A stretch of DNA of 64,000 nt from Chrysoperla carnea (Eukaryota; Arthropoda; Insecta; Neuroptera; Chrysopidae): assembly GCF_905475395.1 (NCBI RefSeq), contig NC_058340.1:67248181-67312180 (forward strand), in the 5' to 3' direction. The position numbers and the translations under genes were made by a program. Of this stretch, positions 20,813 to 53,515 are shown piece after piece. The notes under the pieces are model-generated. The model did not search any database. It was not told where the DNA came from and worked only from the letters and a program-made list of their open reading frames with translations. Position 1 is the stretch's first letter, and each line of letters begins with the position of its first letter.

Positions 20813-21925
20813 GTAATTTTAATTGATAAGTTGAAATTTAAAGCGTAAAAATTTAAAAAAAAAATGCGACCTCAAATGGAGATATCTTTTAGACCACCTT
20901 GACCTTCAAGATAATACAAAAGTCCTCCGGTTTAATTTTAAGAATTTGAAGAATATTTTAAATTAGAAATTTGTTCAATGTAAAAAAGCAAATATCTTTT
21001 GTTTGGAACACTTTTTCAAGAATCAAAGAGTTACGCCAAAAATTCAATCGGAAAATAGAGAAATTTCTCTATAAGAGAATACGATTTAAAAACGAGTGAT
21101 TCGATCAAAATATGTTTGTTTTTTATGAGAAACAACTTTCCAATCTAAAGTACTATTTTTTCTTATAGTAACGAGCTCGAGCTTTGTGTTTCAGTTACCA
21201 ATTTCAATTTTTCAACTTATCTATTAAAATGGTTCATCCATCTAAACGTTTATAGAAATCTTGACAATTTCTCAATACACTTATATTCAAAACCGTCTTT
21301 TTCTATATACAAGGTGTTGAATTCTAAGAAAAATAGAATATTATTGTGAATATTGCCAAAACAGCATACGTAATGTTATTATTTTTGCAAAAGTCAGTGG
21401 CACTAGAGAATATTTTATCGAAACGGATTGATGATAATTTAATTTATCACCTAAGCCTTAAATAATAATCAATATTCACAAAAATACTCTTTTTCTTTCA
21501 AAATTTCAACATCCTGTTTCTAGAAAATAGTCGCCCTATTAGCTCAGTTGGTTAAGGCGTAACCAATTCCATCCGCGGTATGCTTAGGGTAGCGGGTTCG
21601 ATTCAGGCCGTCGCAACAAAATTAATTAAATTAATAGTTGTGATGGGCTGGTGTAGTGCATGGTATATGCATGAAGGAGGTGCACTCAGCCTCTGAAATT
21701 GAGGAGCTGATAAATGAAATTATCAGCGGAAAGGTGGTAAAACACATATGGTATCACAATGGGCTCTATAGCCTAAGTGTGTCCTTCGTGGACAGCCAAT
21801 ATAACCTAACCTAACCATCTAGAAAATATTTGTTTCCTTTCTGTTAGTGTACTAAGAAATTATCATTATTTTAACGTTATTTACTATTTGATGTAGTCCT
21901 GCTATTATAATTAAACCACTCTGTA
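20813..21925. mobile_element. Mariner-type (TACAGAGTGG) element hosting a SINE
   Basis: The outer ends are TACAGAGTGG (20813) and CCACTCTGTA (to 21925), perfect over 10 bp, with further similarity inward (GGTAATTTTAAT versus TTTAATTATAAT). A second inverted pair (TGATAAGTTGAAA near 20823, AACTTATCTATTAAAA near 21218) suggests either a composite or a shorter element within. The SINE at 21530 is inserted in its right part. No coding capacity. Confidence 0.6.
21530..21817 (+). mobile_element. tRNA-derived SINE with (AACCT)n tail and 11-bp target duplication
   Basis: The head is tRNA-like, with Pol III A box TAGCTCAGTTGG (about 21540-21551) and B box GGTTCGATTC (about 21595-21604). A ~150-bp body follows, then a 3' end that resembles the LINE at 53.45 kb, and the tail TAACCTAACCTAACC. 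The perfect duplication TCTAGAAAATA flanks it (21519-21529 and 21818-21828). It is inserted in a mariner-type element (20813-21925). Total length is about 288 bp. Confidence 0.92.
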
Positions 21926-21942
21926 GTTTGGTAGATTTAAAA

Positions 21943-22079
21943 AAAAATGGAATAGCAGAAATTTAACGAAAAAATTTTAATTGATTTGATTAATTATCTC
22001 GGAACAATGACGCTGGGTTAAGAACTATTTTCATTTTCAGTTTTCAAAATGGCAGATTGCATTCTGCTATTCCATTTTT
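21943..22079. repeat. 137-bp inverted-repeat element with perfect 18-bp ends
   Basis: Ends AAAAATGGAATAGCAGAA (21943-21960) and its exact reverse complement (22062-22079). The centre has no coding potential. Probably a very small MITE. Confidence 0.75.
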
Positions 22080-22436
22080 CTATTAAAATCCAAACGGGTC
22101 AATTGGTCAATCTATGGCTGACTCTTGTACAATTATGACAACTTGATTATTTTGAATTGATTTGAGTATTAAAATTATTAATTATACAGACTAATATTTA
22201 ATTATAATTATGTTATTATAATATATATACAATTGATTAATACTTATTAATTAAAAATTACATGGGTATGTATGTACATATTATATAAATATATACAAAA
22301 AAAAATTGTTTTTATATATAAATTATCTTTGGTGTAAAACGTAGAAAATATTTATTATACAAAATATTAATTATGTTGAAAAAAAAATGGCACTTATTAA
22401 TAGATGAGCCAATGGAATTTACGCTAATAATTAAGC

Positions 22437-22592
22437 CTAGGATCTGGTGTGGTATTTGACAATCATTTAGGAAATTTGAGAGACTATTGTCAACTTGGTG
22501 TTTATCAAAAATGATGATTAATCAATTTTTAAATTTTAAGTTTGACGCGATTATTTAAATTTTCATAGAATGTCAAATACTAAATCTGGTTC
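22437..22592. repeat. ~155-bp inverted-repeat element
   Basis: Left CTAGGATCTGGTGTGG followed by TATTTGACA; right, reverse-complemented, CTAGAACCAGATTTAG followed by TATTTGACA. The arms are about 25 bp with several mismatches. MITE-like and non-coding. Confidence 0.5.
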
Positions 22593-23944
22593 TAGTCCTA
22601 TCATGGATATTATTAATTGAGATAATCTTGTTTAAGCAAGTGCAAAAAAAAAGTTAACCTACCTGAACACTGCAGCTAAAGCTATTTTCTTAATTTCTAG
22701 CCAAAGTCAAGGGCAATGTACAATGCACATAGACCTGTCTAATAATAGGCCTTTTCATCTATTTGCTTTGTTTCGGACAGTTGTCAAAAAACTATTCAAG
22801 CAAGGATAATCTAATCAGCGCTGTTTGACAAAGATAAAATATATATGATATACCTTTACTTAATTGACATCTGTCTGAAACAGAAAAGACATTGTTCTGC
22901 AGTGTACAGGGATCTTAATTAAAATTATAACGGTCAAAATTTTTTTATTATCCAGTGGCTGACCTACTAAAATATTTGAAATACACTACATACAAACTTA
23001 AGTACAAAAAATACAAAACAAATTACTATAATGAAAATGAGACAGCTTTACGCTGGAGCTAGCCTTTCGATTCCAATATTCCTATTAATCCCTATTGTAT
23101 AATTAAGGCAATTTTTTTAAAAATTAGTACTTATAAATTTCCTAAGCCGCCTCTAATCTATTTAAATCGGGATCAATAGCAGCGCTTGAATCGATAAGCC
23201 AATCACTATTTTTGTTATAGTGGTTATCGAATTTAAATATCAATTTCAAAAATCAATGGTTATCTTTCAAGCTCATTTCTTTTGTCCATATATAATAGAA
23301 CACAGATCGTTCATAACAGAACAAAAGCGAAACGAAAGTTTAAAGCCACAAAATCGAATGAACATATTGCTTTGAATGTCAAGGAAATTTATTTACCCCA
23401 TGAACAATTTAAAAAAATCGATAAATTTTGTACATTTTTTCTTTGGGCCATTTTCTATTGAGAACGCCAAGCGTTGGTAAATCAAAGTAAAAAATGCATG
23501 GAGATCGTGGCAATCTATTCATTCTGGATACAGGAACGATCCCATATCTAATGACAAGATAACAGTTTTAATGTAACACAAATTAATTAGCGTATTTTAT
23601 GGTATGATTAATCAATATCTATACATAATTTTCTTTTTTTTATATAAAGAAATTTTTATCCAAAAAGTATGTATATAGAGTATGTATATAATTAATCAAT
23701 TTACGTAACTTTATTAGAAAGGTTATATTTTCTTTCCAGAAAAAAAGTCCATTTTCTCGAATCAACAAACTTATAAGGGAAGGTAAAATCAAATTTGTTA
23801 ATTATTTCAACAAAAAGAAAATTGAAACTTATACGATGGCACATTGCATACAAAACAATCTTTTTAATATCAATAAATATATGGCTAAAATATAAGTGCA
23901 AAATTTAGCATTAAAAGAAGCCCTGTCCATTGAAGTTTTTTTTT
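22593..23944. other. Non-coding; short inverted repeats
   Basis: At 22670-22910 the outer pair ACACTGCAG / CTGCAGTGT and an inner pair (TTTCGGACAGTTGTCAA and its near complement) suggest a worn MITE of about 240 bp. The rest to 23944 shows nothing. Confidence 0.45.
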
Positions 23945-24410
23945 TTATACCATGTATATGAAATATACATAGTATATTAAGTTTAGTCCCAAGTTTGTAA
24001 CGCTTAAAAATATTGATGCTACGAAAAAAATTTTGGTATAGGTGTTCATAGAATCACCTAATTAGTCCATTTTCGTATGTCTGGCTGTCGTCTGTCATCA
24101 CGATTATTCAAAAACGAAAAGAGATATCAAGCTGAAATTTTTATAGTGTGCTTAAGACGTAAAAAGTGAGGTCGAGTTTGTAAATGAGCAACACAGGTCC
24201 GTAGGACCCATCTTGTAAACCGTTAGAGATAGAACAAATATTTAAATGTAAAAAATGTTCCTTATAAAAAATAAACAACTTTTGTTTGAAACATTTTCTT
24301 GTAAACATCACTGTTTACCCACGAGGGCGATAATTAGGTGAAAATTTTGTAGTATGTATTAATATGGGAATATCAGTTATGTGTGTGTGGCTATTTAAGA
24401 GTGTTGTAGA
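23945..24410 (-). repeat. Dispersed repeat family D, copy 1 (inverted)
   Basis: One of four copies of a ~350-570-bp repeat. Shared landmarks, read on the minus strand: GGGTAAACAGTGATG, CTATCTCTAACGGTTTACAA, TATGTTGCTCATTTACGAAC, a TTTGAGTTATCGTG-like string (worn in this copy), and an end at an ATACCATG-like sequence. Non-coding. I do not recognise the superfamily. Confidence 0.8.
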
Positions 24411-24725
24411 CAAAACTTATCAAGGTCAATAAAAATCAGTCGACTATGTCCATGACTTTAACTAGAAATTCTAGTTTCAAGGTTATTTGATCTTGATTAA
24501 CTACAAAACGAGCTATTAGCAATAGCAGATTAAAATGGATCATTCTGTACTTATCATGGATGCAATTTTAGTACAAGAAATTATTGTGCCATTTTAACTA
24601 TTGACTAGGAAGTTTTGCAGAGGAAAGAAAGAACATAATTCTGCACAGTTCTAGTTGAATTGAGAGACTGGACTTTTTTTTTAAAAATAATTACAATGAA
24701 CGCTCCCCAGCCATTAGATAATACA

Positions 24726-26555
24726 TCAAGTATGTTTCTTTAACGGTAGTTCTGGACAATATTCAATCATATCACAAGCTGGATTATCTATACTTGATAC
24801 AAGCGTAATACCCGCTCGTACTGAGGTCGGTATTGGTATATGATAATTATTCGTCGCTGATTTTTCATTAACCGTTGACGAACTTTTCACTTCACGCAAT
24901 AAATGTACTAATTTACCTAAAGTATTTACACGATGCCAACGTTTATCTTCAATATTATACAATGCACCTAGATCCGTTGTCTTATTCCAACGCGATAAAA
25001 TATCACTACGTTTTATCAATAAAATTGAATCCGATGTTAATTTTTTATGAAGAACATCCTCACTAATACATTGTACCGGATCAGTAAGGTAGATACCTGT
25101 TGAACTCACCCCAAAAATGGTATGATGTTGCCATTCAAGTGCTGTGATATCTTTTTGTAATACTTGTTGATTAATGGTGATGATTGGGATCACATTATGT
25201 TCCAACCAATATTTCAACCAATGTGACAACGAAAAATTTCGTTCAGGCCATGTTGGAAAAAATCGTGTATAAATTGAATTACCACCGGTAACTTGTTTAA
25301 TTCCCGTAATTAGATCCTCATGACTTGGTAACGCCGTACTTTTTGCAATTAAAAAGTGACATAAATCGAGATCTTGATCGGGGTCTTCATATCGCATGTT
25401 TGGTATTAGATATTGATTCGCCCATTCAGGAATGATTCGAGGTGGTATTTTATCTAATGCAAGGAGTGCATTCAAAACAGCATTTGTTACACAGCCCGCA
25501 TGTAACAAGTTAAATTGTTTCGATTGGACATCTTTTTCGTCCCAAAACATAATTGGTGATAATGGTCGTGTATTATCGTAATGATAAATCGAATACGCTA
25601 AACTTTGTTCTAAACAATCGTTATATAATAATTGATCCGCGACCAAAGAACATTCGGATCCATTATCTGGAGTTTGTTCCTCGGAATTCGTTTTTGATAT
25701 GTCGGATAATTCGTAGTAATTTCTAGGTAATGTATTCGTATGACGTATTCCTGTACTGGTACTGGGTAAATTTAACTCAAAATCAGCCTTAACAATTGCC
25801 ACTGGTGGATGTGAGCTTTCTACTTGGATATTTTGTTCATCTAAATCGATATCAACACTTGATTCAGAATCAGCTTCACATGATGGACCCGGATCAAAAT
25901 CCATTTCAAGGTAATCCATTTCGGGACTAGATTCTCTAGATCTTTGTCGTAATGGTGGTATTTCAATTCGTGGATAAAAATCCTCTTGATGATCGTCGAT
26001 AAAAAAACTATCTGGTAAATCAGCTGACCCCCCTTTATATGTATACACACACCCATCATCCGAAATCGATAAACTAGTGTCCTCACTTTCAGTATCGCTT
26101 ATATCACTTGTCGAACTACAACTACTTGAACTATTTTTTACTTTACAATTATTTTCTTGTGAATTACTAGGTCCTGGTGGAAAATCATTAGCGGTAACTT
26201 CTAAACGATCACTTACTTCGATATTATTAAATTTTTTGATAAAATTTCGATCAAAATCAACCGTAACTTTATTTAAACTATATGGTTTAATTAGTTCTAA
26301 ATTTGTATCGTCATTATTACAATTACCCAAACCCATTTTACTACAAGTTCGCGTACCAAAATTATTATTTAATTTTGTGCATCGATTTTTATCATCTTTT
26401 AATATTCGTTTTGGTATGGCACCTCGATGATTCGATGTACCACTGTCCGCTTCTGGTATCGGTTTGCTATTTGCATTGCTGTCAGGTATGTTATTGGATT
26501 TTGTGCCGCCTGGTTCAGAACAATTTTGCTGTTCTATGTTATTAATATCGTTCAT
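24726..26555 (-). CDS. Uncharacterised 609-aa protein with a C39/papain-like Cys-His-Asp domain
   Basis: A single coding exon. The start chosen is the Met of MNDINNIEQQ, because a good 3' splice site (TTTTTTCCAG) lies 13 nt upstream (exon edge at 26568), so a non-coding first exon is expected. Residues 1 to about 300 are low in complexity, acidic and Ser-rich, and look disordered. Residues about 335-520 look folded. They contain QFNLLHAGCVTNAVLNALL (Cys355), then WLEHNVIPIITIN, EWQHHTIFGV (His477/478) and GIYLTDPVQC (Asp492). The order Gln-Cys-His-Asp, with a TDPV after the His strand, is that of C39-like bacteriocin-processing-type peptidases of the papain fold. Protease activity is inferred, not shown. 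The tail (after about 520) has no motif I recognise. I cannot name an orthologue. Confidence 0.8.
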   Translation of the reverse strand: MNDINNIEQQNCSEPGGTKSNNIPDSNANSKPIPEADSGTSNHRGAIPKRILKDDKNRCTKLNNNFGTRTCSKMGLGNCNNDDTNLELIKPYSLNKVTVDFDRNFIKKFNNIEVSDRLEVTANDFPPGPSNSQENNCKVKNSSSSCSSTSDISDTESEDTSLSISDDGCVYTYKGGSADLPDSFFIDDHQEDFYPRIEIPPLRQRSRESSPEMDYLEMDFDPGPSCEADSESSVDIDLDEQNIQVESSHPPVAIVKADFELNLPSTSTGIRHTNTLPRNYYELSDISKTNSEEQTPDNGSECSLVADQLLYNDCLEQSLAYSIYHYDNTRPLSPIMFWDEKDVQSKQFNLLHAGCVTNAVLNALLALDKIPPRIIPEWANQYLIPNMRYEDPDQDLDLCHFLIAKSTALPSHEDLITGIKQVTGGNSIYTRFFPTWPERNFSLSHWLKYWLEHNVIPIITINQQVLQKDITALEWQHHTIFGVSSTGIYLTDPVQCISEDVLHKKLTSDSILLIKRSDILSRWNKTTDLGALYNIEDKRWHRVNTLGKLVHLLREVKSSSTVNEKSATNNYHIPIPTSVRAGITLVSSIDNPACDMIEYCPELPLKKHT

Positions 26556-27632
26556 TTTGCATAGTCTTCTGGAAAAAAATGTATTAAATTGTAACACTTA
26601 AGATTAATTTTTATAAACAACATTTTTATGAGTAATAAGTTTACCTATGTAGAAATATTTCATTATAAAAAAAAAATTATAATGACATGTAAAACTGTTA
26701 CACGGTAATCATTTATAAATATTTATATTGAATAAAAAATATTTTTATTATTTGTTATATTTAATTTATAAACTGTTATTGTAACTTCTTTACTTTACAA
26801 GCACAAATGTGTGTAAATTTGACATTTGACATCAAAGGACATTAATTTTAGTTTTCAACTAACATACTTGCCAACTTTGTACAATGTATTTCAAAATAGG
26901 GTACGTTCTACTGAAGTGCGAAACGTTTATTACGTTAAAAATAGATAGATATTAATTTTCTTATACATTATTTAAGTGCTGCTTTTGCCACCCGCCACGG
27001 ATTCCTTGTCTTTAAGTATCACAGGTTGGACACCACCACAGGATGAACCCAAGGTCCAAAAAACCCGCAGACTCGTGTTAACTCGATCCCTTTAAAGGCA
27101 TGGGCAACTCATGGATCACAAAAAAATGCTGCTTGCCCACGTGAGATCTTGTTTTCAAGAGGGAACTTGTTTTCAAGGTGGTGCTATGTAATTTTAACTC
27201 TAAACTATTATTAAATAATATTAAATTTTTATCTATGACTAGTTTTTGAGGTGGTATCATATAGGAATTCATATCATTCCATCCTTATAAATTTCATCCC
27301 GATCATTTTGTTGTTGGATTTAAATCAATCATTTTGTTTTTGGATCGTTTTCTCATGGATCTCATCAATCGTTTTGATCTTTGATAATATATCCTCGATA
27401 CAATACAATAATAACTTAAAAAATCGATACAATAATAACTTAAAATGAGCCTGAGAAAATATTAAGCTTTTCAACGGAAATTCAATCGCAATCGGATTCT
27501 TTTCTAATTTTCCTATACGGATGAGAGTAATGTTACAGCATTTTATATTACTAAAAGTCTACAGATCGATTCCTGGTAAATAATGGGATTCCTGGGATAT
27601 GATGTAACACAAGCTTTACATTAAGTAGCGTT
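26556..27632. other. Intergenic between the C39-like gene and the Mutator-like element
   Basis: Expected to hold the non-coding first exon and promoter of the C39-like gene, which I cannot place. The block 26990-27180 is less AT-rich and unexplained. A short direct repeat, AATCGATACAATAATAACTT, lies near 27400-27440. Confidence 0.4.
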
Positions 27633-27859
27633 GGTAACTAGTATGGAGGTTATAAAGAAAAAGAACGATCGCTATAGAAAATATTGTCCCCAAAATATGG
27701 ACAATATTTGAGGCGCTGGGATCGCTAAGTTGTCTCATTAAAAGCGGGCTGTTGTGCGCTAATTTCAAATGATCTATCAACGTTTAATATACGTGTATAT
27801 AATATCATTCAAAGGAAAAAAAGGCAAATAATGAAATTATTATTAATTATTATTATTAT

Positions 27860-28004
27860 TAACTTCCCGCTAAGAAAATAGGGAAGTTATTGTTTTCACC
27901 CCGTTTTGCCAAAATCGAGTTTTCATCAGATCTCGACGTTTTAAGGTGTCAGGAAGCTTCCCTGACTACTTCCGCGGGGGTGTCTGTATGTATGTATGTA
28001 TGTA

Positions 28005-28041
<37 letters not shown>

Positions 28042-28984: not shown

Positions 28985-31316
28985 ATGACATCAAATTTTC
29001 TAGAGATTGATGGTAGCGTTTTAGAGGGTGTAAGTTGGTTTTTAGATTATGCTAATGTTTAAAAACTAATTTTCGCCGGCAGGAAGAAATTTAATATGAG
29101 TATCTTGAAATACACAATTTAACATATTCCTTAAAGACTTTTTGGTTCACTTAATTTCTTAGGAGATACTATTACGAAAATTAAGTAAAATTAGACTTAA
29201 ATTAGCTTTCATACGATTAAATCTCCTAAAATCATAAAGAGTTTTAGAGGGTGTAAGTTGGTTTTTAGATTATGCTAATGTTTAAAAACTAATTTTCGCC
29301 GGCAGGAAGAAATTTAATATGAGTATCTTGAAATACACAATTTAACATATTCCTTAAAGGCTTTTTGGTTCACTTAATTTCTTAGGAGATACTATTACGA
29401 AAATTAAGTAAAATTAGACTTAAATTAGCTTTCATACGATTAAATCTCCTAAAATCATAAAGAAAATATTTTCATGAATGTTACGACCTTACCTTTCTTT
29501 GAAATAATAGTACTTGTAATATTTTTAGGGAGGTCAAATTTTACGAAATGCAATTGCTCTTAGTATCGTATGTAATGTACCCATTAATATATCGAATATT
29601 CGAAAAGGAAGATCTACTTCAGGTTTAAGACCTCAACATTTATCAGGTAAAACACTAGATATCTCCAAAAATTTTCCTCAGCCCTAAAATATTTGGTAAT
29701 TTGTAGGTGTTACTTTAGTAAAAAATATATCAAACGCAAGCGTAAGTAATGCCACAATTGGTTCAGAACAGCTAACATTCACTCCTAGTCAAATAATCGG
29801 TGGCAAATATGAAATTGACACAAGAACCGCTGGAAGTGTGGCTCTACTATTACAAGTTGCCTTACCCGTTTGCTATTTTGCATGTGGACCAATTACATTA
29901 AGTTTAAAAGGTGGAACAAATTGTGAAATGGCCCCACAAATCGATTTCTTAACAGAAGTATTTCGACCAAATTTAGAAAAATTTGGTGCAACATTTAATT
30001 TCGATTTAATTCGTCGTGGTTATTTTCCAAAGGGTGGTGGACATATTTCAGTAACTCTAGAATCAGTGAATTTTTTTAAACCAGTGAATTTATGTGATCA
30101 AGGAACTGTTCAAGAAATATTTGGTTGGGCGTTTGTGGCTGGATCATTACCTGTACAGATTGCACATGATATGGCAAATGGTGCAATTCAAAAGTTTAAA
30201 CAAAAATTTCCTAATTTAAATATTAATATAGAACGATATAAAGAGGATGGCCGGGTAGCGCAGGGTAATTGTTCTGGAATAATGTAAGTAGCCAAAATTG
30301 TCATAAAAAAGGAGGGTTTGTAAAATGTAGGAGAAAATCTACGAAACCTTTCAATAGGGAATATTCATGAAATTTAAATTTGGTTCAAATATTTTTCTTC
30401 CGTAACTTTAATGACTGGACATTTCAACTAAACCATTATTTTAGTAATTAAAAACTGCATTTAAATATCTCAAAATTATAGTGTATTTTAAATATTTTTT
30501 TACACTTAAATACAGCATTTTTAAACAATATTTTTTATTTATTACTTTGTTATAACGGTGTAAACAATGAATTAAAAATATAAAAAAATACATGAATATT
30601 CCCTATTCAGGTGATAGAGAAACACGTTTTCTTGTCCATAATGCACTAAATTACAGGAGTTATTTTTATATTCAAATGCACAAAATCTTTACAAATTTGG
30701 AGGGCGGAGGTGCCTCTATTTTTTTTCCAATATCGATGACTTGTTCAGATCGCCGACCCTCCCCTTAAAGTCAAAAAGTACAAAAGGGATTCTAAATTCC
30801 TTCACCTTCAATGTTTTGAGAGATTCACCTTCAATGTTTTAGAAACTCGTATCTATTCATAAAAATTGAAATAATATGGTTAAATATTATTTATTTTCAC
30901 AGTTTAGTTTGTACAACAAGTACCGGTTGCGTTTTGGGTGGATCAAGTTTGGGAAATCGAAAAGAATCATCAGAAGTGAGTGGTTTTAAAGCAGCTGACG
31001 AAATCCTTGAAGCTTTAAAAGATGGTGGATGCGTTGACAAATACGTACAAGACATGTTAATAATTTTTATGGCATTAGCTAAAGGTAAATCCAAAATTCA
31101 AGTTGGCGAAATCACATTGCATACGAAAACAGCGATTTATGTGGCAGAGAAAATGACAAAGGTTGGTTGTTTTTATTTTTCATTCGAAAAAATTTATAAT
31201 ATTTATTGGATTTATTGATTTTATAGGCGAAATTTAATGTGAAAAATATTGGAAATAATACAAACATAATTGAATGCGAAGGAATTGGAAAAGAAAATAG
31301 TCAAAAAAATTATTAA
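28985..31316 (+). CDS. RtcA: RNA 3'-terminal phosphate cyclase (RtcA), complete, 5 exons
   Basis: RtcA converts RNA 3'-phosphates to 2',3'-cyclic phosphates using ATP, through an enzyme-AMP intermediate on a histidine. Exons 28985-29029, 29529-29646, 29707-30283, 30903-31161 and 31227-31316 sum to 1089 nt (362 aa; human RTCA 366). Motifs in order: [84 protein letters not shown], and [14 protein letters not shown]. The His of LHTKTAI falls at residue 320, the position of the catalytic His in the human enzyme. Exon 1 encodes only 15 residues and ends with donor GGT|GTAAGT. Its last 12 nt and the donor are copied 224 bp downstream in intron 1. Intron 3 carries a 255-bp MITE; intron 4 uses donor GTTGGT. 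AATAAA lies at about 31343. Confidence 0.96.
29018..29465 (+). repeat. 224-bp tandem duplication spanning the RtcA exon 1 donor
   Basis: Copy 1 runs 29018-29241 and copy 2 29242-29465, with one difference that I can see (AAAGACTTTTT versus AAAGGCTTTTT). The unit starts with the last 12 nt of exon 1 (GTTTTAGAGGGT) and its GTAAGT donor, so a second, identical donor exists at 29254. Confidence 0.95.
30353..30607 (-). mobile_element. AATAGGG-family MITE, internally deleted form (255 bp)
   Basis: The same 17-bp inverted ends as the 590-bp element at 1876, in opposite orientation, with only the two flanking portions kept. It lies in RtcA intron 3, on the opposite strand relative to the long form. 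Confidence 0.85.
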
Positions 31317-38421: not shown

Positions 38422-41400
38422 TCAATTCTTATACATATCACATAAAACTTTCTCCATGGGTGTATTTCCAATTGTACGATGAAAAAATACAGCCTCAACT
38501 CGTGATGCTGGTACCAAACGCAACAACGGTAACATCAGTAACAGTCGTCCAAATCGTGCCGGTTGTCCTGGCATTTGTGCTCGACAATGTTGTAGCAACA
38601 TAACTTGTGCTTGATCTTGTAAATTTTCAATTTGACTGGGATCTTTTAAACCACGTGTTTCTGGAAAGATCACTGAAAAATTTATTCTCGCTTTGTCGCA
38701 CTAAAATCGGCATAAAAATTAATACTTACCAGCACGAAACAATACAATTGCTTTTAAACATGCAAATTCGGCTGGATCCACTAGAATAGCTTTAAATCTG
38801 GATAATATATCGGCAAGTGTACGAACTTCGGTAGCTATTTGACTAGATTTTACACCATTTCCAGAACTTGCCATATGTTCACTAACCGAAAATAGTGGTG
38901 AAGATGCTGCGTCTAATGGCATACACCATTGTATCGCATTTAGTAGAAATAATTCACTCCAGGATTCTTCCAAAAGTATCACCTGGAATTCAATTCCTTA
39001 TTAAAAAAAAAAATTATATCGATTGAACTACAGCCATATTTGTTCGACTATTTTGGTGTCGTATTATATTATAAGTGCTCTATCTTCAAAAATTAAGTAG
39101 TAGGAAAAATATATATAGTTTACCTGATCTCGAAATGGTAGACTAGCAAAACTTGGTAAATTTTTTGCCCATTTAACAGCCATAAATAATAAACGGGCGG
39201 ATGTTTCATAAACAGTTTCATGTGCGGGATTATATAAAGACGGGTGTGGAGCTGGATTATGTGGTTCTGGTCGTACCGGTCCACTACTGGAACTTACTGC
39301 ACATGGTTGGACTGGTGTTCCACTTGTGCTTGATTCTCGTAACGATGGTGAATGTTCTTCTTCGTTTGTTACGTCAATGCTATCATCTAGAAAGAAAATT
39401 TTGAATCAATTTCAGCAAATTTTACGAAACATACGTGCATTTGATGACTGGTCGAATAGTTTTTGAGATGCGGATTAAAATCGATCCAAATATTGCGATA
39501 TCTCAGAAACTCTGCATCCAATCATTAAATTAACCGGATTTTTAAACTTTTTGGATCAAAATTACCCCATCCACCGAGATTCATCAAATTCCAAGACAAA
39601 ATTTTTTTTGCGATATTCTCGATTTTCAAAATAATTGCAAAAAATCGAAAAATTTCGATAAAACTCAGTCTGTGTCATTCCGCATAAAAGTTACTACTGA
39701 CCCAACGAAAAATAATGCCACGTTCTCAAGTTATTTGACTTCCAATTGATAAATATTTGTTGATTTGTTCGATTTTTTAAAAATATCAATCGATTATAGG
39801 CAATACACATTACATAGATGTGTGATTTTTGTGTAAAAAAACGGGTCTTTATTTTTTCGTCACGTAACTCTCAAATACAATTTCATTTAGTGATAAATTT
39901 TCTAGGATAAACCCGGTTGGTTTTGGACGCCTATTGAACCGATGATATTTTGTTTTTATAAAGGTATAGTTTACAAGCTACAACAGTCAATGTTCGGTTG
40001 TAACATGACGGCCGTGGCGACCGTGTAGAATAACTGGATGATTATGGATACCGTTGATGATGATGATTGGGATATAGTTGAGCTTTTAATATATTCAAAA
40101 AGTAAAATGGTTGTAGGATTATAAATGAATTAGTCCTTGTTTGGTGTATGTGTGTATGAGTGCCACTAATTAATCATTAGGGAGTTGTCGGTGTTTGAAT
40201 GTTTGCATTAATTACAGAGGATTTCATATGTCATTTCTATGTAGGTATGTTGGTTGCTGTTGTTGTACGTTCGTTCGGTTCAGTTCAATGATGTTGTGAG
40301 CAACGTATACTAACTATACAACATATTTATATAACGGCCAAACAATATGGAAACTTGGATGAAACTAACCAACAACAATAACAATGCTATGGAAAATGAA
40401 TTTCGAAATGGATATGATGTTGTTATTATGTATAAAATATATTTCTAGTATCCTATGTACAGTCAGAGACGATTAAAAGTTTAGAATTAGTACGAAAAGA
40501 TAGTGAACAAAAAACAATTAGGCAATAATCAAGAATCGAACCCCGGACCTATTTCTTTGGAGGCGAGCGCATTTTTTTTCCGAATAAGTCCGTTATTTGG
40601 CCCAATTTGTTTAATCTGACAAAAAATTTGAAAAATATGATCCAAAATTTATAAAATTAAATCATTGGTTCATTCAGTTAGGTAAATCTACGGATTTTGA
40701 TGCTAATTTGTAAAAAAATAGGTTTCTTTTCTTTTTTTTAGTAGGAACGATCCACGCGACATTTTGCGCGCGGTTTTTATCTCTACATGGTTTACTTTGG
40801 TTTTCTTATAAGTTTTCTTGAATATCTATGCTATTGATCGTATTGAGACGAATAAAAACAAAAGAATTGTTTAGTAAGAATTTCTGCATCGATCTTGCTT
40901 ACTATCGAACCCCGAACATAGCAAAATAACCTCAAAATCTCATAAAAATCGCAGTAACCTCATACTTTCAATTTTTCTGATAAATTTTCGAAAAAGTCGA
41001 AGGAATTGAGTTGCAATTTTGAAAAAGATGTAGCATATGATCATAAAAAGGGTAGTAAATTTAAGCCCGATATCGTCACAGAAAGGCTGACTTAAATCGA
41101 TTCCAACTCCTCATGGCAATGGCTGGACAATGACAGAGAACATCGACATGAGACATCGCGTATATTATCGAATAAAAAAAGGCTATTAGCACAGCTTGGT
41201 TACCTCTACTCAAGCTTCAGCTTAAAGAGCTTTACCAAAAATAAATCACTGACTCAATTTTAAAGAAAATTACTTTAAATTAGAAATCTTTTTATGTTTT
41301 CGACCACTTTAACTACAAAGCTAGAAAAACTATATCTATTGTTGTACTAAATTCACTCATATCTGTTGTAATAATAGTAGTAACACCATTGTAACTAACT

Positions 41401-44400
41401 AACCCGCCCATCATTAAAGGGTTTTATTTCATATTCATATAATATATCATCCTCATTCCAGAATCCAGGTACATCGTTAGTTATTATTTATGTAATAATA
41501 TTCATAACTGGACATTAGAATATATATTATATTTTGTTTTGTTGTTCGAATTCATTCGAATAGAGAGATTGTCCTTGTATTGCACATAGCACATATAACT
41601 AACTTTGTTGAAATAATTTTAATGCGTTTATCATCAAGTGTGGATCCAGAGAGGAGCAATTGGGACCATTGCCTTTTCCAGAAAGTAAGGAAAAGCATAG
41701 AAATTCTCCTTATTTGGCGTTTAATATTTTTCGAGATATCTCTTAAACTGTTCCCAAAGGAGGGGTATCGATAAGACTTCATTCCCGCCCCAGAGTAACG
41801 AAAAATCAAAATCATGCGATTTGATGTTTTCTTTATCACCATCCTGTGCTCTATAGAATAAAAAACTGTTGTCTCCGATTTGAATAAAATAAATTTTCTG
41901 CCGTAATGTTGGCCCAAAAAATACAAAAATTGGGTTCTTTTGACGATTGAACATGTAATTTCTTAGATGTCTCCTGAAATTGTACACGAAGGGTGATATC
42001 CTGTGCCAATTTCGACAGTCAATATCTTAAAGTCAATAAATTTCACAAAATGATCAAGATTTTCGTATTTCGTTCAAGTAAACCGAAGGCCCAGTAGTAG
42101 AAACAAGCAAACAATAAAATGTTAACGAAACAAATGATAAATGTCCTGTAGAAATTTTGTGAAGTCGCGCTTTCATCCGCCATATTGTGTCCTGCCTACA
42201 TAGTTTGAATTGGTATATATTTGAATATAATTTATTCATAAAATTTAATGATTTTATTTTATGTTTATACACAAGCTTTAAAAAAACTGAAGATTAAATC
42301 TGTTTCGCAATAAAATTAAAGGTTGTAAAATCTTTAGCTCACTTGAATTTTCGATAAGGGCATTAAAAACAAATAAGATATTTTTAAATTATAGCCCAGA
42401 TATTAGTGTACTTTAGTGTGTAACAAGTACCTGAATCGAAGCCAGGTGGATACAATGAAATTTTGTTTAAAATGTTTTTTTGTTTTATCTCTAAGATAAA
42501 TAAATCTTTGTCTAGAATCTATGTGCTTTCAAAGTACAGAAAGTAATTAAAGTGTCTAAAGTAAGTGGTGAAGAATATTAAGATTATCTATTAACGTTTA
42601 CTTTACCATCATTGTCGGTTAATTCATGTTTAGGTGTTGGAGGTTGTGGTAATGTTATTGACGGTGGTCCCAAAAGTCCTGGCGCATATCTAGCTGGTGA
42701 TAATGCCATTGCTAACGACACTGGTGGCCTAGAAGAATTAAAAAAAATCATTATTAAGTTTCTAATTGACGCCTATATGGACAAACAGTGATGTTTACGA
42801 AAAAATGTTTTATAACTAAAAGTTGTTTATTTTTTATAAGGTACATTTTTTATGCTTAAACTTTTGTTCTATCTCTAACGGTTTACAAGATGAGTCCTAC
42901 GGCCCAAGACCTATGTTGCTCATTTACGAACTCAAACTAACTTTTTACGCTCTGAATACGCCATAAAAATTTCATCGTGCTATCTCTTTTCCTTTTTGAG
43001 TTATCTTGTCCACAGACAGACGGGCAGACGGGCATACGGACTGACTACCGCAAATGGACTAATTTGGTGATTTTATGGTGATTTGTTCGTAGCATCAATT
43101 TTTTTTATGTATTTCATGTATGTAGGGTATAATAATACAATGTATTCCATATATGGAGATAAAAAGATATAAATTGAACCTCCATCATCAAGTCAGGTTG
43201 GCCGAGCGGTCTAAGGCGCCAGATTTAAGCTCTGGTTCCCAAACGGGAGCGTGGGTTCGAACCCCACACCTGACAATTTTTTTTTTTTTCTAAATTAAAA
43301 ATGTAATTACATCAATTAACAAAAATATTTAGAGTAATTTTCTTTTGAATTTTGTGACCTTATAATATTCAATATTTTTTCATTAGCAACGTATTTTTTT
43401 TGTAACAAATTTCCTATTGATTGATTGTTAATTATTAATAAATAATAAAAATAATAATAAATAACTTTTATAATAAAATGTTTGCTAGTTCAGGTGTAAA
43501 ACAATTTTTACAACAAAATAAAATCGATGAATTGGTATTAGATACTATAAAGTAATTTTATGGTGTACATTGTTCTAACAAAACAACCTTTGATCATTTA
43601 AATTATAATATATTATCAATCGTTTACCATTCATGATGTATCATCATATTATACGTTAACGTTATCTATGCTATCGTTATCATAATGCTCTTTGTTTTCT
43701 AAATGGTTGCTGATAACAAGTAACGACCTATATACTTTTAATACCCTTTACCTGTACAATGTGTCACAAAAAGTGTATACCTACTATTTTATAAAAAAAT
43801 AAGGTACACCACTTTTAGATTGAACAAGTGAAAGCAAACAACTGTCTGAGTAAATTGTTGAAATACCATGCATAGACAGTGTTGATTACTCTATAACATT
43901 ACACAAACATACATGACACACATATACATAACTGATAATCCCATATTAATACATACTATACAATTAACGCCTTATTTTGCGCCCTCGCGGGTAAACAGTG
44001 ATGTAAACAAAAAATGTTTCAAACAAAAGTTGTTTATTTTTTGATAAGAGATTTTTATATTTAAACTTTTGTTCTATCTCTAACGGTTTACAATACCCAA
44101 TTGACCTATGTTGCTCATTTACGAACTCTACCTCACTTTTTACGTCCTGAGTAGGCTGTAAAAATTTCAGCTTGATATCTTGTTTCGTTTTTGAGTTATC
44201 GTGTCCACAGATGGGCAGACAGACATCCGGGAATACACTAATTAGGTGATTTTATGAACACCTATACCAAACTTTTGTTCGTAGCATCAATATTTTTAAG
44301 CGTTACAAACTTGGGACTAAACTTAGTATACCTTGCATATTACATATACGCATGGTATAAAAATAACTTTTTTTTATATTAACATCGGGTCCTCTAGATG

Positions 44401-46330: not shown

Positions 46331-46584
46331 CTGAAATAAAAAAAGTACAAATAGATTAAAAAATTATATTCTGAAAACACTATCAAAATGTATTTAAAGG
46401 TTCTCAGATGTAGACATCAAAGAGATTATCAATATTTTCAATATTTGTTCCAAAAGTCGTTAAAATTTTGTCCTCTTGGTTGAAAAAGAAAGTAAAAGTA
46501 CGAATTTTTCATTAGCCATATTGATAAGTGGATAAGAATCTTTTCATAAAATAAGGCATTTAATCTATATATATTTTTCTATAG

Positions 46585-47073
46585 AATAGGGTATTTTACT
46601 ATTTTTGAAAAAGTACTTCAAAATGTTGATTTTGCTAATAAAAAGCCATCAAAAATTTATTTCGGAAAAATACACACGCTTTCTTGGCAAAAACTTAAAT
46701 TAAATTTTAAACTGCCAAAAACGCGGGCATCCAATTTGAGGACGTAATATCGGTATCATTTCACGAAATAACAAAAATAAGTTTGACAGATATATTCATA
46801 GACATCTGATTATAATAAATATAAATACTTATTATCTATGGGTATATTATACCCAGCTGTATACACTGAACTAATTGATGGTCTGTGGCTCATACCGATA
46901 TGACATCACAGCTTGTCGCGTTAGTTTAAAAATTACGATTTTTAATTTTAATATTTTAAAAGAAAAATGTGCTTTTATGACTCGAAATCAGAATATTTAA
47001 GTATATTTTTATATAAATTTTAACTTTTTTTGAAATTTCATAATTTATTTTTGACTAACGATAATACCCTATT
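46585..47073 (+). mobile_element. AATAGGGTATT-ended MITE, copy 1
   Basis: Perfect 11-bp inverted ends AATAGGGTATT/AATACCCTATT and a length of 489 bp. The body is closely related to 47895-48387 in the same orientation. The AATAGGG terminus is shared with the family at 1876, although the bodies differ. Both copies lie upstream of the known receptor exons. Confidence 0.78.
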
Positions 47074-47856
47074 ATTTAATTCTCTATTGCCTGATTGAAC
47101 AAGGTATTAAACTATTAAACGTTAAAAACGTCTATCTAAATGAATTGATTATTTTTAATGATGTGAATGATTAATGATACCATAAATGGTTCGAAGGCCT
47201 CTCATATTCAATACGGTACGGTATACTAAATGACATTATAAAAGGTATATATAATTCATAAAACAAAATATAATGTCCAGCAGTGAGTGAACAACAGTAT
47301 AAAATAAACAAATAAAAAATAAATTTGTAAGTTTATTGTATGATAAATAAACTCTCAAAGGACAAAACCTACTCAAATAAATTACTCAACATAACTTTTC
47401 ATAACCCCGTATTTAACTTTGCACCACTACTACTACGCTCTGCTACCATATTTAGACGAATCAATTTAGAATGTGATTATATTCTATTCGTGTATATATA
47501 ATATTTATTTGTATAATCACATTCTAATATAATAATTTTATATGTAGTATACAAAACAAAAACAGAGATAGATAAATGAATAGATGATATTGGGTATAGT
47601 AGTATATGGTAGTATACTATAACGTAGTGTTTGGTGCGGATTAAATAGCTTTAAAACGCATTAATCAGTGTCATTTAAATCCGGACTATAACTGTTTGTT
47701 ACTCTCTGGAGCTAGAGAGTACTACGACTACTCTCTACTCTAACATTGGAACGATAATAAAGAAATGTATAATAGATATAGATATATATAAAAGGGGTTT
47801 TGTTTGGTTTTGGTTGTTTATATTGTTGTTTTGGAGTTTGTTCTATTGTTGTATTG

Positions 47857-48743
47857 TACAGGGTGGATCAAGTTATAACAGTAGTCGTTTCATCAATAGG
47901 GCATTCCACTGTTTTTGAAAAGTACTTCAAAATGCTGATTTTGCTAATAAAAAGCCACCAAAAATTTATTTCGAAAAAATACACACGCTTTCTTGCCAAA
48001 AACTTAAATTAAATTTTAAACCTTTTTTAAACTGTCAAAAGCGCGGGCATCCAATTTGAGGACGTAATATCGGTATCATTACACGAAATAACACAAATAA
48101 GTTTGGCAGATATTTTCATAGACATCTGATTATAATAAATATAAGTATTTATTATCTATGGGTATATTATACCCAGCTGTCTACACTGAACTAACTAAGG
48201 TCTATGGCTCATACCGAGGGCTTGTCCGCGTTTTAGGTCACGTGATATACAGTTTAAAAATTACGATTTTTAATTTTAATATTTTAAAAGAAAAATGTGC
48301 TTTTATGACTCGAAATCAGAATATTTAAGTATATTTTTACATAAATTTTAACTTTTTTCAAATTTCATAATTTATTTTTGATACCCGGATACACTTATAG
48401 ACGGATACACTTATAGCGTCCTTTTCTCGAAACCGGGTGAATATTGCCAAAACGATTTCATAACTTTGCACTTGATGCCTCAAGTAGGTATGGGACATTG
48501 CAAATTGATAATGTATTTGCAATTAATTCAGATGGTGCTAGATATTTTTTCCTTGAAGCTGGTTGATGGCATATAAAATTTCTATTTTTTGTATAAAGGT
48601 CCTCTGGTCATATTCACAAAAATAAACTGTTTTTCTAAAATTTCAACACAATTTGAGCAATTGTTATTATTTTAACGTTGAGCAATTGTTATTATTAACT
48701 ATCATTTGATGAAGTGCTGTCGTTATAACTTGAACACTCTGTA
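47857..48743. mobile_element. Mariner-type (TACAGRGTG) element hosting a nested MITE
   Basis: The ends pair: left TACAGGGTGGATCAAGTTAT, right (reverse complement) TACAGAGTGTTCAAGTTATA. The inner region is mostly the AATAGGGTATT element at 47895. The rest (48388-48743) contains a short direct repeat, GAGCAATTGTTATTATT, twice. TA target sites are implied by the TA at each end. Non-coding. Confidence 0.65.
47895..48387 (+). mobile_element. AATAGGGTATT-ended MITE, copy 2, with worn ends
   Basis: Aligns along its length to 46585-47073 with small differences and one short internal replacement near 48215-48245. The left end is AATAGGGCATT and the right end GATACCCGG. It is inserted inside a mariner-type element (47857-48743). 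Confidence 0.75.
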
Positions 48744-49510
48744 TAAATATTGTTCGATGTGTATTTTGTTTGTCGGCTGGTAGTTGGTAGATAGGATTTT
48801 AATTTCGCGTAAAATTACGATTATTTGTTTGTTCTATAGTTGATTTATTGTAAGTAGACGTCTATAACTAATATGACAATATTATATATTTATGATTTAC
48901 GGAGGACTTGTAACAAAAAAGTTGGCTAAGTAAATCTATATGAGTCTCATAGTTCTGAGTATAGAAATTCAGAATCATTAGCTATCGTTTTTTCAAAATG
49001 TTTTAATTAGTCTTCATAATCTTTTTTGGTTTTTCAATATTTTGAAAATTTCTGCTATGTCTAGAATTATAACCAATTTTCATTCTGTATTATTTCATTA
49101 TTTGTTCAGTCCTATGGAAGTTTTAGTATAAGCAGGTCTAAAAGTCTCTTTAATATTTTCAATAAAAATTTCTAGTGGTATTTTTCTCTCTCACGTTCAA
49201 CGCTACCCAGATTTTTGCCTTGCAATTAACTTTCTTCGAATGAGGCAACCTAAAGGAGTCAAAGGAAGGCTCTGATTTTTGGTAATTGAATTATTTGATC
49301 ATGAATTTGTTCAAAGCCGCACTCTCGTTATCTGGTAATCGTGTCCTACTTAGAAGTTTCGGGGTTCTTCTCAAAGGTTCTTGTCAAATTCTTTGACAAA
49401 TTAATTTTTTTGTTTTCTCATGCAGTTAGTCAGCTCTGATTCAATTAGAGTTTGGAGTTTTTATGTGATCAGCACTTTGAGTATTATATTTTAAAGTTTC
49501 TTCTTCTTAA

Positions 49511-49821
49511 GGTAGTATTATCGGTGATAGACTTTGCATTCAGAATTAAATGAAACTTGGCATAGTTGTCCATTATTATATCATAATTAACCAGTTTTAG
49601 GGGCCTTCAGAGAACTGAAAATCTGAACGTCCAGTTTTGTGTAATAAAATAGAATCTGTGATTTCCCACAAGAATCAATGTTAAAATATCTTTAAAATAT
49701 CTTTTTTTCAGTTCTCTGAAAGCCCATAAAAATTTAACTGGTTAATTATGATATAATAATGGACAACTATGCCAAGTTTCATTAAATTCTGAATGCAAAG
49801 TCTATTACCGATAGTACTACC
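49511..49821. mobile_element. Foldback MITE with ~110-bp inverted repeats, TTAA-flanked
   Basis: Flanked by TTAA (49507-49510 and 49822-49825). The arms pair over about 110 bp with few mismatches, for example TAGACTTTGCATTCAGAATT near each end and a CAGTTCTCTGAA block inward. The terminal AAGGTAGTA matches the right end of the 500-bp elements, so the same transposase may have moved all three. Confidence 0.88.
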
Positions 49822-50401
49822 TTAACAGACTTTCTCATATAAGATTTTTTAAGGAAAACCATTCTGTTAAATTTTGTTAGAATGTCATACTATGTCACAA
49901 GTAATAATCAACTTCTATATAAATGTGTACAAAAATACTTTAAAATTACTTTCTTTGTCTTTAGTGTGTTATAAAGTGTAGATCTATAGATGTATAAATA
50001 CAATACTAAAGTTTAATTTAAGATTAACCAATTCATTTATATTTGAAAGGCGACAAAGTGAAAATTGATTGTTGGGTTTTACTTTAATACAATTAAAAGT
50101 ATCGTACAAAATAAAATTAACAAAATGAAAATATTGATTTTTATTTTAATTTAAGTAAAATATTCATTCTCCTTTTTTTTTTTAAAACTATATTTGCATT
50201 AATTTGAATATTCAGTTTCATGCGTTTAAAATTAATGAGTTTGTAATTTTAAAAATTTTATGCTGCTAAACCAACTTTTAGAGTAAATATAATTATAATT
50301 AAATTATATTTTTTGGCAAATGGTTCATTTTTTTTCGTAATATTTGTAAGGATTCTAATCAGATTCATTTAATACGTAAATGGTCTCGAAGTAAAAATCT
50401 G

Positions 50402-50784
50402 TACTTCAAACCTGGGTAAGTGAGAACTGGATAAGTGAGAGTAATAGCCAGGACCCGCCATTTTAAGCTCCCAAAACCTCTATTAGCGAGAAACAGTAAC
50501 CTCTGTAAGAGAGAGTCGTTTTTCTCTCATGGACCTCCGTAAGTGAGACTGCTACTTATCTATACCTCTTTAAGCGACAGTCGAGCTTTATTTATTTATA
50601 TTATTTAGGAGGCATTTTTACAACATTCGAACTTGCTGTGATTTGTTATTGTTGCGTACCTCTATAAGAGAGAAACGCTACCCTTGTACCTGAATTAGCG
50701 AGAAAATCGGGTTAGTGAGAAATTTCTATAAGCGAGAATGAGATTGTGCTCCCTTGAACTCTCGCTTATCCAGGTTTGACTGTA
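50402..50784. mobile_element. pogo/Tigger-like element built from repeats of its terminal motif
   Basis: Inverted ends are TACTTCAAACCTGGGTAAG (left) and, reverse-complemented, TACAGTCAAACCTGGATAAG (right), with TA at each edge. Within 383 bp the short motif TAAGYGAGA or a close variant occurs about ten times in one orientation (near 50417, 50431, 50475, 50498, 50538, 50572, 50667, 50695, 50713, 50731), plus the right end inverted. Non-coding. Confidence 0.72.
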
Positions 50785-51188
50785 TAATGCATTTTTCACA
50801 GTGATAAGAAAATCAATAATTATTATTTATTAATAAAAAAAATAAATGAAAAATTGAATTTGATTTCATAAATAAATAAATCTACAGCGGGAAATATTAC
50901 TATTGTCAGCACATTCACGAAGTCGAAGTCTCATGCTTATATATATTAGTGATAAACTGATAAGAATGAAAAACAGCAGCATAATGGGATACAGATATTG
51001 GAGAAAGAAAGCATATTTGTTCGTTCGTTGCACGTCATCATAATAAAAGTGGAGTAGGCGGTTGGTTATTATTTTATATAGCACACACTGGGAGCGGTTA
51101 TGAAAATTTATTTTTATTGAAAAAGAAAACTTGATAGATATTATGCAACTTGTCATATTCGATTATACTCTCTAAAAAAAGAGGTCAA

Positions 51189-51695
51189 CCTTAGAATCTA
51201 ACGGAATAAGTTGAATATTTGTACAAACCTTTATTTTGATAGTAAAAAGGTCAAAAGTCATAGTTTGCTACAGAAACTTTTAAAGCCAATATCCATCAAC
51301 TTCAATAAGAAAGGTTTACCAAGCGGAAAGGATCACACAAGAAATTTATAGGTATACAGAAGGTCATGAAATTTTATAGACTGGATTCCACAATTGACCC
51401 TGCACTAAGGTACCAAGAGCTGAGCACTCCATCTTCTGCGCCCTCTATTTAAAAAGTGGTTCAACGTATAAAAAAGGTTTCAGGCGAAATTTGTAGAGAA
51501 TTTTATCTCCTAGAACGTTTTAGTAAATGTAAATATGATTGAAGGCAAAGAAAACGAGATATTATCAAAAAACTGATTTTTGCTAACTTTGACCTTGAAT
51601 ATCCAAGGACGCTGACACGTGATTTTTGAAATAATATTTGCATTATCAAAATAAAGGTTTGTACAAATATTTAGCTTATTCCGTAAGATTACGAG
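51189..51695. mobile_element. MITE with ~48-bp inverted repeats, family unknown
   Basis: Left 51189-51243 and right about 51640-51695 are inverted copies, including ACGGAATAAG and ATTTGTACAAACCTTTATT at each end, with roughly seven mismatches. The total is about 507 bp with a non-coding centre. No target duplication is obvious. Confidence 0.75.
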
Positions 51696-52998
51696 GTGAA
51701 ATCCTAAGAAGATTGGACTATAATAAAAATACGATTTTAGAATATATCGGCTGTTTCACCAAAATTAATGCAATATAATATATTTGTAGGCGTGAATAGC
51801 CAATGAAAAGAAAATAAAATTGGCTGCTTTTTCCACATCTTCCTTTTAATTGGTCAAGTTAGCAAGACTGATTAAAATTGGTTAAAAATTACGACCTGTA
51901 AAATGTAATTAGCTATACACAGCAAATTTGAATGATAATAATTTTTTTCTAGAACTGAAAAAGCTATCATTTGATAGTAAAAGTTTTTTGCTTTCCAAAA
52001 AGCTAAATAAAATATTAATTTTTTGAAAAAGAAACCACTTTATTAAATTTTTTATTAATGCTGGCATATAATTGCACAGATTGGGGCGTTAAATTTATTG
52101 TCAGAAAGTGTTAATGAGAATAGAAATTATAATTACCCATGTTACGTTTTAAAATTTTAAAATATATTTTACTAACTTGTAATATTTTAAAACTTTTAAA
52201 ATAATTTGTGTTAAGTTTTAAAGTATTTAATATAATATTTATTAAGATAACATATCTATCTATATATATATAACGTAATTTGTAATTCACTTTGTAATTT
52301 ATAATTTACTTTGTTAATGTACCTACGAATATGTTGTTATAAAATATTCTATGCGATAGATTTTAATAATAATTTATACATAAATGATTATTTACTTTTA
52401 AAATAAACTTAAAATGTAGAACCAGTTCGGATTCTCTTTGGTATAACCTTTTTATTTAAATCAGTGAAGGTGAAAAATAATGAATTGGTTAAACTTTTAG
52501 CTAAGCTAACTACTTTAGCGTGTGAATGTATAATTTTGAACGGTGCATCAGGAAGTTATTAGGTTAGTTTTAAAGCTTTTCTTAATGCTACCATCTTGTA
52601 TATTTATAGCTTATTTACATGGAAACGATTTTTTTAATTTTTACCCGACTGTCAAGGAGTGGCTATGTTTTTCGTTCGGTCTAAAAATATACCGCTTAAG
52701 AAAAAACAGGCTAAAGAAAATAATATTTAGATTTAATTTTACTCATTATGTAATTTTTATATCATATCTGTTATAAAATTGCCTATAACTAAAAAGAAAG
52801 TAAATTTGTCTAGCCTTTTTTAAGCCACGGGTATCGCACTACGAAATTCGTCACGGGTCGAGATAGTTATATAAAATAGTATAACCTCTACCATAAAAAT
52901 TTGATTCTGTTTGGTGTTTCAGAATAATTAACAGTCTAATTAAAGTTATGTTGTAGAAAGATTTGTTGATTATTTTTGTCTGGAGTATCCTTAATTAT

Positions 52999-53515
52999 GG
53001 AGAGTTCCATTTCTTGTAAGAGGATATCCTGAAAAGGCCAATCTTAGATGGAGGGAAGAACGTACTTGTGGTACTACAAGACAGATATGACCTGAGTACA
53101 ATCGCAGGCGTTGCGAAGTTCTTATATCACTTTCAATGGTCTCTGTTCGCAAAGTTGTTGCGGCTATTACAGGATACTGGCTGGGTGGCAAGCATGCTGA
53201 ACGCTTAGGCCTAGCAGTGTATCACGACTACTGCAGGAGCTGTCACAGTGGTGCCGAGGAGGAGACAATGTCTCATCTCTCTGTCACTGCCCAGCTATTG
53301 TCATGAGGAGATGGACTTACTTGAGCCAGCCTCTCTTTGACGACCTCTCCGACCTAAAGTCAGTCGACGTCAAAGCTCTCCTGCTGTTCTTAAACAGCTC
53401 CAAATGGTTCATGGAGTAGTGGTCGGGGATGGGCCAACCCTTTTACGTTCTCACAACGGACCCTATGGTCTAAGTGAGTCCCACCACAGGACAGCCACTC
53501 TAACCTAACCTAACC
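52999..53515 (+). mobile_element. 5'-truncated LINE 3' end with target-site duplication and (AACCT)n tail
   Basis: The sequence begins inside the post-RNase H linker (EKANLRWREERTCGTTRQI), continues through a Cys/His knuckle (YHDYCRSCHSGAEEETMSHL) and ends in a 3' UTR with tail TAACCTAACCTAACC. A perfect 12-bp duplication, ATCCTTAATTAT, flanks it (52987-52998 and 53516-53527). This fits target-primed reverse transcription. Several stops break the frame, so this copy is dead. The last ~60 nt resemble the 3' end of the SINEs at 21.5 and 62.8 kb. Confidence 0.88.

Follow-up and report, generated by a model that had tools for sequence, protein, structure and literature searches.

We analysed a window of 64,000 nucleotides from chromosome 4 of the lacewing Chrysoperla carnea (C4:67248181-67312180; genome of 559 Mb in 337 contigs), in which two copies of a short interspersed element (SINE) and one copy of a long interspersed element (LINE) have a 3'-terminal stretch of about 54 nt in common, followed by a (TAACC)n tail. 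The two families very probably form a tail-sharing SINE/LINE pair of the stringent type, in which the LINE protein has reverse transcriptase (RT) and RNase H domains and the tail is fitted to the primer at the target site.

The shared 3' end and its tail

The claim of the initial annotation that the SINE and the LINE have a common 3' end holds also when the tail is left out. With the tail excluded, the alignment of the SINE 3' ends with the window LINE gave scores of 21.5 (SINE at 21530) and 17.5 (SINE at 62770), compared to 17.0 and 13.0, respectively, for the best of 5000 shuffles, and the typed family 3' ends of the SINE and the LINE scored 27.5, whereas none of 5000 shuffles exceeded 13.0. 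The shared stretch begins slightly earlier than initially noted, at GGTATCACAA, where the window copy of the LINE is mutated. The sequence AACCTAACCTAACC (with at most one mismatch) has three matches in the window, precisely at the three ends, and none in 100 shuffles.

Copies of both elements are dispersed through the genome. A 30-nt SINE 3' end taken without the tail has 915 exact genome copies, of which 651 are followed by one exact TAACC unit and 443 by two (the ends outside the 651 may have decayed, have a shorter tail or have lost it). A LINE 27-mer ending in three tail units has 332 exact copies, and its reversed control has none. In genome searches, 40 of 1211 SINE candidates (all at least 93% identical) and 40 of 3220 candidates for the LINE 3' end (all at least 94% identical) were scored. 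A set of 38 copies (8 SINE, 30 LINE), drawn from searches with queries that contained the tail, has tails of 1.6-5.0 units throughout (medians 3.2 and 3.4), with poly(A) at the 3' end in none. Because the tail was part of these queries, we also used tail-free queries from inside the LINE, which yielded 16 loci representing 15 places (L097 and L098 coincide). An AACCT tail, at least a partial one, is present at every one of the ten places that extend to the 3' end; the other five stop short of it (L092, L093, L096, L102, L103). The SINE count (651 of 915) and this LINE count speak for the initial annotation, which named a lack of AACCT tails in most copies, or an unrelated 3' end in full-length LINE copies, as grounds for refutation.

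Insertion sites and tail/target overlap

Clear duplications of 8-15 bp flank 25 of the 38 copies (5 of 8 SINE, 20 of 30 LINE), compared to 9 of 1406 mismatched-flank pairs judged by the same rule. Together with the shared end, this supports the earlier proposal of a tail-sharing pair, with target-primed reverse transcription as the mode of insertion. The target site reads TTTT/TA (the slash stands between positions -1 and +1): of the 25 copies, 16 have T at position -1, 15 have T at +1 and 12 have A at +2. On average, 1.88 nt of the duplication are also part of the tail, vs 0.37 nt in simulations, the largest of 5000 of which reached 1.04. This overlap implies that UAA of the tail is able to form base pairs with the ...TTA-3' end of the nicked target, and such pairing explains a tail unit that contains TAA without recourse to telomeres.

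Stem-loops and the LINE protein

In 33 aligned ends, stem 1 reads GGGCT-CTAT-AGCCT in the SINE and GGACC-CTAT-GGTCT in the LINE, so that two base pairs are compensatory, with changes on both sides. Stem 2, TGTCC...GGACA, is present in both elements with dissimilar loops. Across both stems 97.5% of the cells are paired, vs at most 46.7% with the partners slid, the covariation score of the stems is higher than in all 500 shuffles, and the single-sequence folds of the SINE and LINE ends include both stems.

Pfam analysis identified only two domains in the LINE: RVT_1 in the longer copy L104 (E-value 5e-28) and RNase H in a second window fragment of the same family (14052-14686, E-value 3.6e-15), which matches ten LINE loci with 59-80% amino-acid identity (E-value below 1e-11). 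The RT and RNase H domains were thus found on different copies of one LINE family. A LINE with both domains fits the I/LOA-like group, an assignment made at the level of the group.

Origin of TTAGG arrays in the genome

The pattern (TTAGG)8 has 192 overlapping matches in the genome, and none of the 100 matches listed lies at a chromosome end. Behind these 100 matches are 16 arrays, of which 12 are tails of the SINE and 2 are tails of the LINE (L040, L057); the array L091 follows what looks by eye like a worn SINE, with no BLAST match of at least 30 nt, and for L086 no adjacent element end was found. A second pattern, which matches starts of about 7 units but excludes those that follow a C, yielded 52 starts, 11 of them in arrays already read. 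Owing to this exclusion it mostly misses the tails of the LINE (CTCTAACC). Reading 20 of the other 41 starts revealed 17 SINE tails, 2 LINE tails and one array with no element (L132, preceded by a short SINE-like stub recognized by eye). Altogether, 33 of the 36 sampled arrays (14 of 16 and 19 of 20) represent the 3' tail of a SINE or LINE copy, a count that refers to pure arrays with at least some 7 units. In the second set, 17 of the 19 element matches extend up to the array or to 1 nt from it, and gaps of 4 and 9 nt separate the two others from their arrays; in the first set some arrays are preceded by degenerate units. Both flanks were read for the 16 arrays of the first set, and the far one consists of non-telomeric sequence, sometimes after degenerate units; the longest array read measures 215 bp. 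Arrays of such length may have grown by template slippage or by later replication slippage.

Three mixed (AACCC/AACCT)n arrays (L110, L111 and L112, at 2.56, 6.41 and 86.7 Mb of C1) are dispersed and have the same flank, CCAAAAATTACAAAAATTGTG. No SINE or LINE match was found in the short stretches read, and these arrays belong to another repeat with telomere-like units.

Chromosome ends and the telomere question

Over 200 nt to the left and to the right of the 38 insertions, no dimer of the telomere type is present. We also inspected the outer 1.2 kb of each chromosome end (10 of 12 are readable, 2 consist entirely of N), and the 10 readable ends contain neither a TTAGG dimer nor a match to the SINE or the LINE. 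These results do not support the suggestion of the initial annotation that the tail is taken from telomerase-type DNA or used to prime on telomeres. A survey of telomere motifs reports that (TTAGG)n is absent from the telomeres of C. carnea and that no motif met its criteria at the ends of this species, and it gives (TTGGG)n for Nineta flava and (TTAGG)n for Nothochrysa capitata (PMC12564400); another paper found no simple telomere repeat in Neuroptera (PMC8977481). The 38 insertion sites, the 10 chromosome ends that could be read and these reports led us to reject telomere targeting.

At 8 of the 10 readable ends we found satellites of about 146, 165 or 306 bp; two ends, L070 and L079, show no tandem array. 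The satellite of about 165 bp is common to L072, L073, L076 and L078 (ends of C2, C3, C4 and C5; 94-97% identity between ends), and the 306-bp satellite to L069, L077 and L080 (ends of C1, C5 and C6; 93-100%), which makes these two cross-chromosome repeats candidates for a terminal or subterminal satellite. Three matches of 66-76 nt to the 306-bp satellite (76-79% identity) occur in our window at 39501-41967, i.e. inside chromosome 4. A block of (TTGGG)n with about 20 units is located about 660 bases inside the right end of C3 (L074:435-538), and (TTGGG)6 is listed at C1:33799-36678 and C2:154960-156959; the C1 block and the C3 satellite have 95 identical nt in common. The reversed-pattern control carries no information for (TTGGG)n, which gives the same repeat when reversed. 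As the best, albeit unproven, telomere candidate of the species is thus (TTGGG)n, the AACCT unit of the tails does not match it. Of 20 further (TTGGG)6 places on C1, outside its end block, 18 are on the minus strand (counted by eye).

On C1, 31 of 71 matches to the LINE 27-mer lie within 15 Mb of an end, vs 15.2 expected, with the 15-Mb cut chosen after the positions had been seen and with C1 as the only chromosome for which the LINE list is complete. The SINE has no excess in the first 15 Mb of C1 (11 among the 100 matches listed, 12.1 expected). As the SINE is expected to depend on the machinery of the LINE, the end bias of the LINE points to the fate of copies after insertion more than to targeting.

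Proposed mechanism and alternative explanations

We propose that the LINE protein most likely binds the shared 3' end with its one or two stem-loops, and that it would also move the SINE RNA. Its putative endonuclease would nick T-rich TTTT/TA(A) sites, where the exposed ...TTA-3' could pair with UAA of the (CCUAA)n tail and prime first-strand synthesis. The tail unit would be kept by its fit to the primer and by re-copying via slippage, and not as telomere DNA; some 2-5 units would be laid down at insertion, and some tails may grow at that time or later.

A number of observations weigh against this interpretation. The compensatory pairs (2) and pair types (8) do not exceed those of shuffles (2.1 and 8.9), the compensatory changes separate the SINE and the LINE as groups, so that each pair may reflect a single event, and the folds are not unusually stable (z-score -0.41 for the LINE and -1.56 for the SINE). 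The endonuclease is seen only as an SDHRY motif, spotted by eye in longer LINE copies and resembling that of the APE-type enzymes; Pfam gave no endonuclease match on the LINE pieces tested. In the head of the SINE, ARAGORN found no tRNA, and the only Rfam match, to a tmRNA family and below the gathering score, covers a T-arm-like stretch and what comes after it; we rejected a tmRNA identity for the SINE and regard this match as a resemblance to the T-arm. A clear duplication is missing from 13 of the 38 copies, and once the position rule is dropped, matches of at least 8 nt occur in 73 of the 1406 mismatched pairs. Finally, 3 of the 36 sampled arrays (L086, L091 and L132) have no element identified by alignment.

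These three arrays are also what could be cited in favour of regarding the long TTAGG arrays as true interstitial telomeric sequences, i.e. relics of fusions or breaks filled by telomerase, into which the elements inserted by chance; by eye, L091 and L132 resemble worn SINE ends. We consider this highly improbable: 33 of the 36 arrays are located at the element's own 3' end and on the correct strand, some after degenerate units, the far flank of the 16 arrays read on both sides is non-telomeric, and true interstitial telomeres are rejected for those 33. A comparably remote alternative is that the tail derives from telomeres or primes on them, so that (CCUAA)n would pair with TTAGG overhangs and the elements would insert into, or extend, telomeres in the manner of TRAS/SART or Athena. 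The tail is indeed precisely complementary to the telomere repeat that is ancestral in insects, the LINE 27-mer is in excess towards the ends of C1, and the relative N. capitata is reported to have TTAGG telomeres (PMC12564400). The lacewing copies, however, have ordinary duplications at TTTT/TA sites and no telomere-type dimer nearby, the readable chromosome ends are free of both the repeat and the elements, TTAGG is reported to be absent from the telomeres of C. carnea itself (same source), and the end bias is of megabase scale, comes from one chromosome with a post hoc cut-off and is not shared by the SINE.

It is somewhat less improbable, although still unlikely, that the tail unit is a fossil, captured from ancestral TTAGG telomeres and kept after the telomere motif had changed or been lost; an ancestral LINE would have primed on TTAGG or copied it, and the unit would have been retained because it also primes at T/TAA nicks. 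The occurrence of both TTAGG and TTGGG telomeres among Chrysopidae (PMC12564400) and the presence of (TTGGG)n blocks near three chromosome ends of C. carnea, alongside AACCT tails, would fit this scenario. No direct trace of a capture was found, though, and unrelated TAA-bearing tails are described elsewhere, such as (TGTAA)n of UnaL2 and (TAA)n of the I element (PMC3747384). Such tails in other LINEs indicate that chance combined with the fit to the primer suffices.

Comparison with known SINE/LINE systems

With its RNase H and RT domains the lacewing LINE differs from elements of the L2 clade, which are not known to have RNase H. The L2-clade LINE UnaL2 of the eel and its partners UnaSINE1/2 form a stringent-type SINE/LINE pair, as we propose for the lacewing elements, and UnaL2 ends in (TGTAA)n, a pentanucleotide that contains TAA and is likely to take part in template slippage (PMC3747384); UnaL2 requires its 3' stem-loop (PMC4176376). 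As these two papers show, tail-sharing SINE/LINE pairs whose ends have stem-loops and short repeats are well documented, and slippage has been proposed for them. In the lacewing the repeat unit is AACCT, and the stem-loops are predicted from sequence.

Another comparison is offered by the Gecko SINE of Aedes aegypti and its LINE (MosquI / I-74_AAe), whose source paper reportedly names slippage retrotransposition in its title. Gecko is an insect tRNA-SINE that, like the lacewing SINE, shares the tail of a LINE, and the pair is the only protostome entry in Table 1 of the review (PMC3747384); the two pairs differ in partner LINEs and host. In Lepidoptera, truncated copies of non-LTR retrotransposons have 3' repeats that seed simple sequence repeat (SSR) arrays across the genome, each located between target duplications, as in the lacewing, but these elements belong to the RTE clade, and no telomere-type tail unit is named for them in the available text (PMC2887409). 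The unit of the lacewing tails, unlike that of the RTE tails, equals the ancestral telomere repeat.

The silkworm elements TRAS and SART resemble the lacewing pair as insect non-LTR elements that are tied to TTAGG/CCTAA, and the initial annotation had pointed to them as R1-clade elements. Kinship with them is not supported, given the absence of poly(A) and of a TTAGG target from the lacewing copies and the presence of RNase H, which R1-clade elements usually lack. Membership in TRAS/SART was rejected on their two defining features, insertion into TTAGG arrays and a poly(A) 3' end, each with 0 of 38 copies. Athena-type elements are attached to telomeres and lack an endonuclease; the lacewing elements do not share such a position at chromosome ends, since neither has a match in the outer 1.2 kb of the 10 readable ends and their copies are dispersed. 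TRAS and SART require their 3' untranslated region (UTR) and insert into TTAGG arrays (PMC4700185); poly(A) between the element and the repeat is described for SART1 (PMC3747384) and is part of the search templates for both elements (PMC12564400).

Features of the window

The span 21530..53515, initially annotated as a single feature, contains genuine elements but does not represent one unit, as it covers two separate insertions. The target duplications claimed for the SINE and the LINE were both located. In the window copy of the LINE, which is about 505 nt long (approximately 53010-53515), the stop codon of open reading frame (ORF) 2 is at 53417-53419, the 3' UTR has 81 nt, and 11-13 nt after the 5' duplication are unaligned. 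For SINE copy 2 we found no clear target duplication by eye. The A and B boxes of SINE copy 1 were read against what we take to be the consensus.

Table 1. Coordinates of the SINE and LINE features in the C. carnea window
Feature	Position	Strand	Remarks
SINE copy 1, 5' target-site duplication TCTAGAAAATA	21519..21529	+	11 bp
SINE copy 1, body	21530..21801	+	A box TAGCTCAGTTGG, B box GGTTCGATTC, by eye
SINE copy 1, LINE-type shared 3' end	21750-21801	+	
SINE copy 1, tail (TAACC)3	21802..21816	+	extra A at 21817
SINE copy 1, 3' target-site duplication TCTAGAAAATA	21818..21828	+	
LINE copy, 5' target-site duplication ATCCTTAATTAT	52987..52998	+	12 bp
LINE copy, 5'-truncated	53010..53500	+	C-terminal end of ORF2, then 3' UTR
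LINE copy, shared 3' end	53447-53500	+	
LINE stem-loop 1, GGACC-CTAT-GGTCT	53458..53471	+	2 base pairs differ on both sides between SINE and LINE
LINE stem-loop 2, family sequence TGTCC...GGACA	53477..53493	+	outer pair broken in window copy
LINE copy, tail (TAACC)3	53501..53515	+	
LINE copy, 3' target-site duplication ATCCTTAATTAT	53516..53527	+	
SINE copy 2	62770..63042	+	91% identity to copy 1; shared 3' end 62991-63042
SINE copy 2, tail TAACCTAACCTTACCTAAC	63043..63061	+	
Second fragment of the same LINE family	14052..14686	-	RNase H domain (ORF 13959-14603); without 3' end

The window also contains two tandem arrays, at 8384-9260 (317-bp units, 2.8 copies, 94%) and 29018-29463 (223-bp units, 2.0 copies, 99%), and a tRNA-Leu (TAA) gene called by ARAGORN at 43192-43275.

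Implications

In the open-licence literature, as far as its text was available, we found no description of a telomere-type SINE/LINE tail or of such an origin of arrays; the accessible reports on AACCT in Osmia and shrimp deal with telomeres and SSR counts and not with SINE tails. Interstitial arrays of the TTAGG type are traditionally read as relics of chromosome rearrangements, with break repair as an alternative reading. If the tail unit were a telomere fossil, TTAGG seeds able to grow would have been sown throughout the genome, and they could serve in telomere healing or pass as fusion scars. The lacewing pair provides a clean natural case of a LINE tail unit matched to the nick of its own putative endonuclease. 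Notably, tails of retroposons give rise to telomere-like arrays in a species that reportedly lacks TTAGG telomeres. Since 33 of the 36 sampled arrays are such tails, surveys of telomere motifs in insects, and inferences of chromosome fusion, should mask SINE and LINE tails first.

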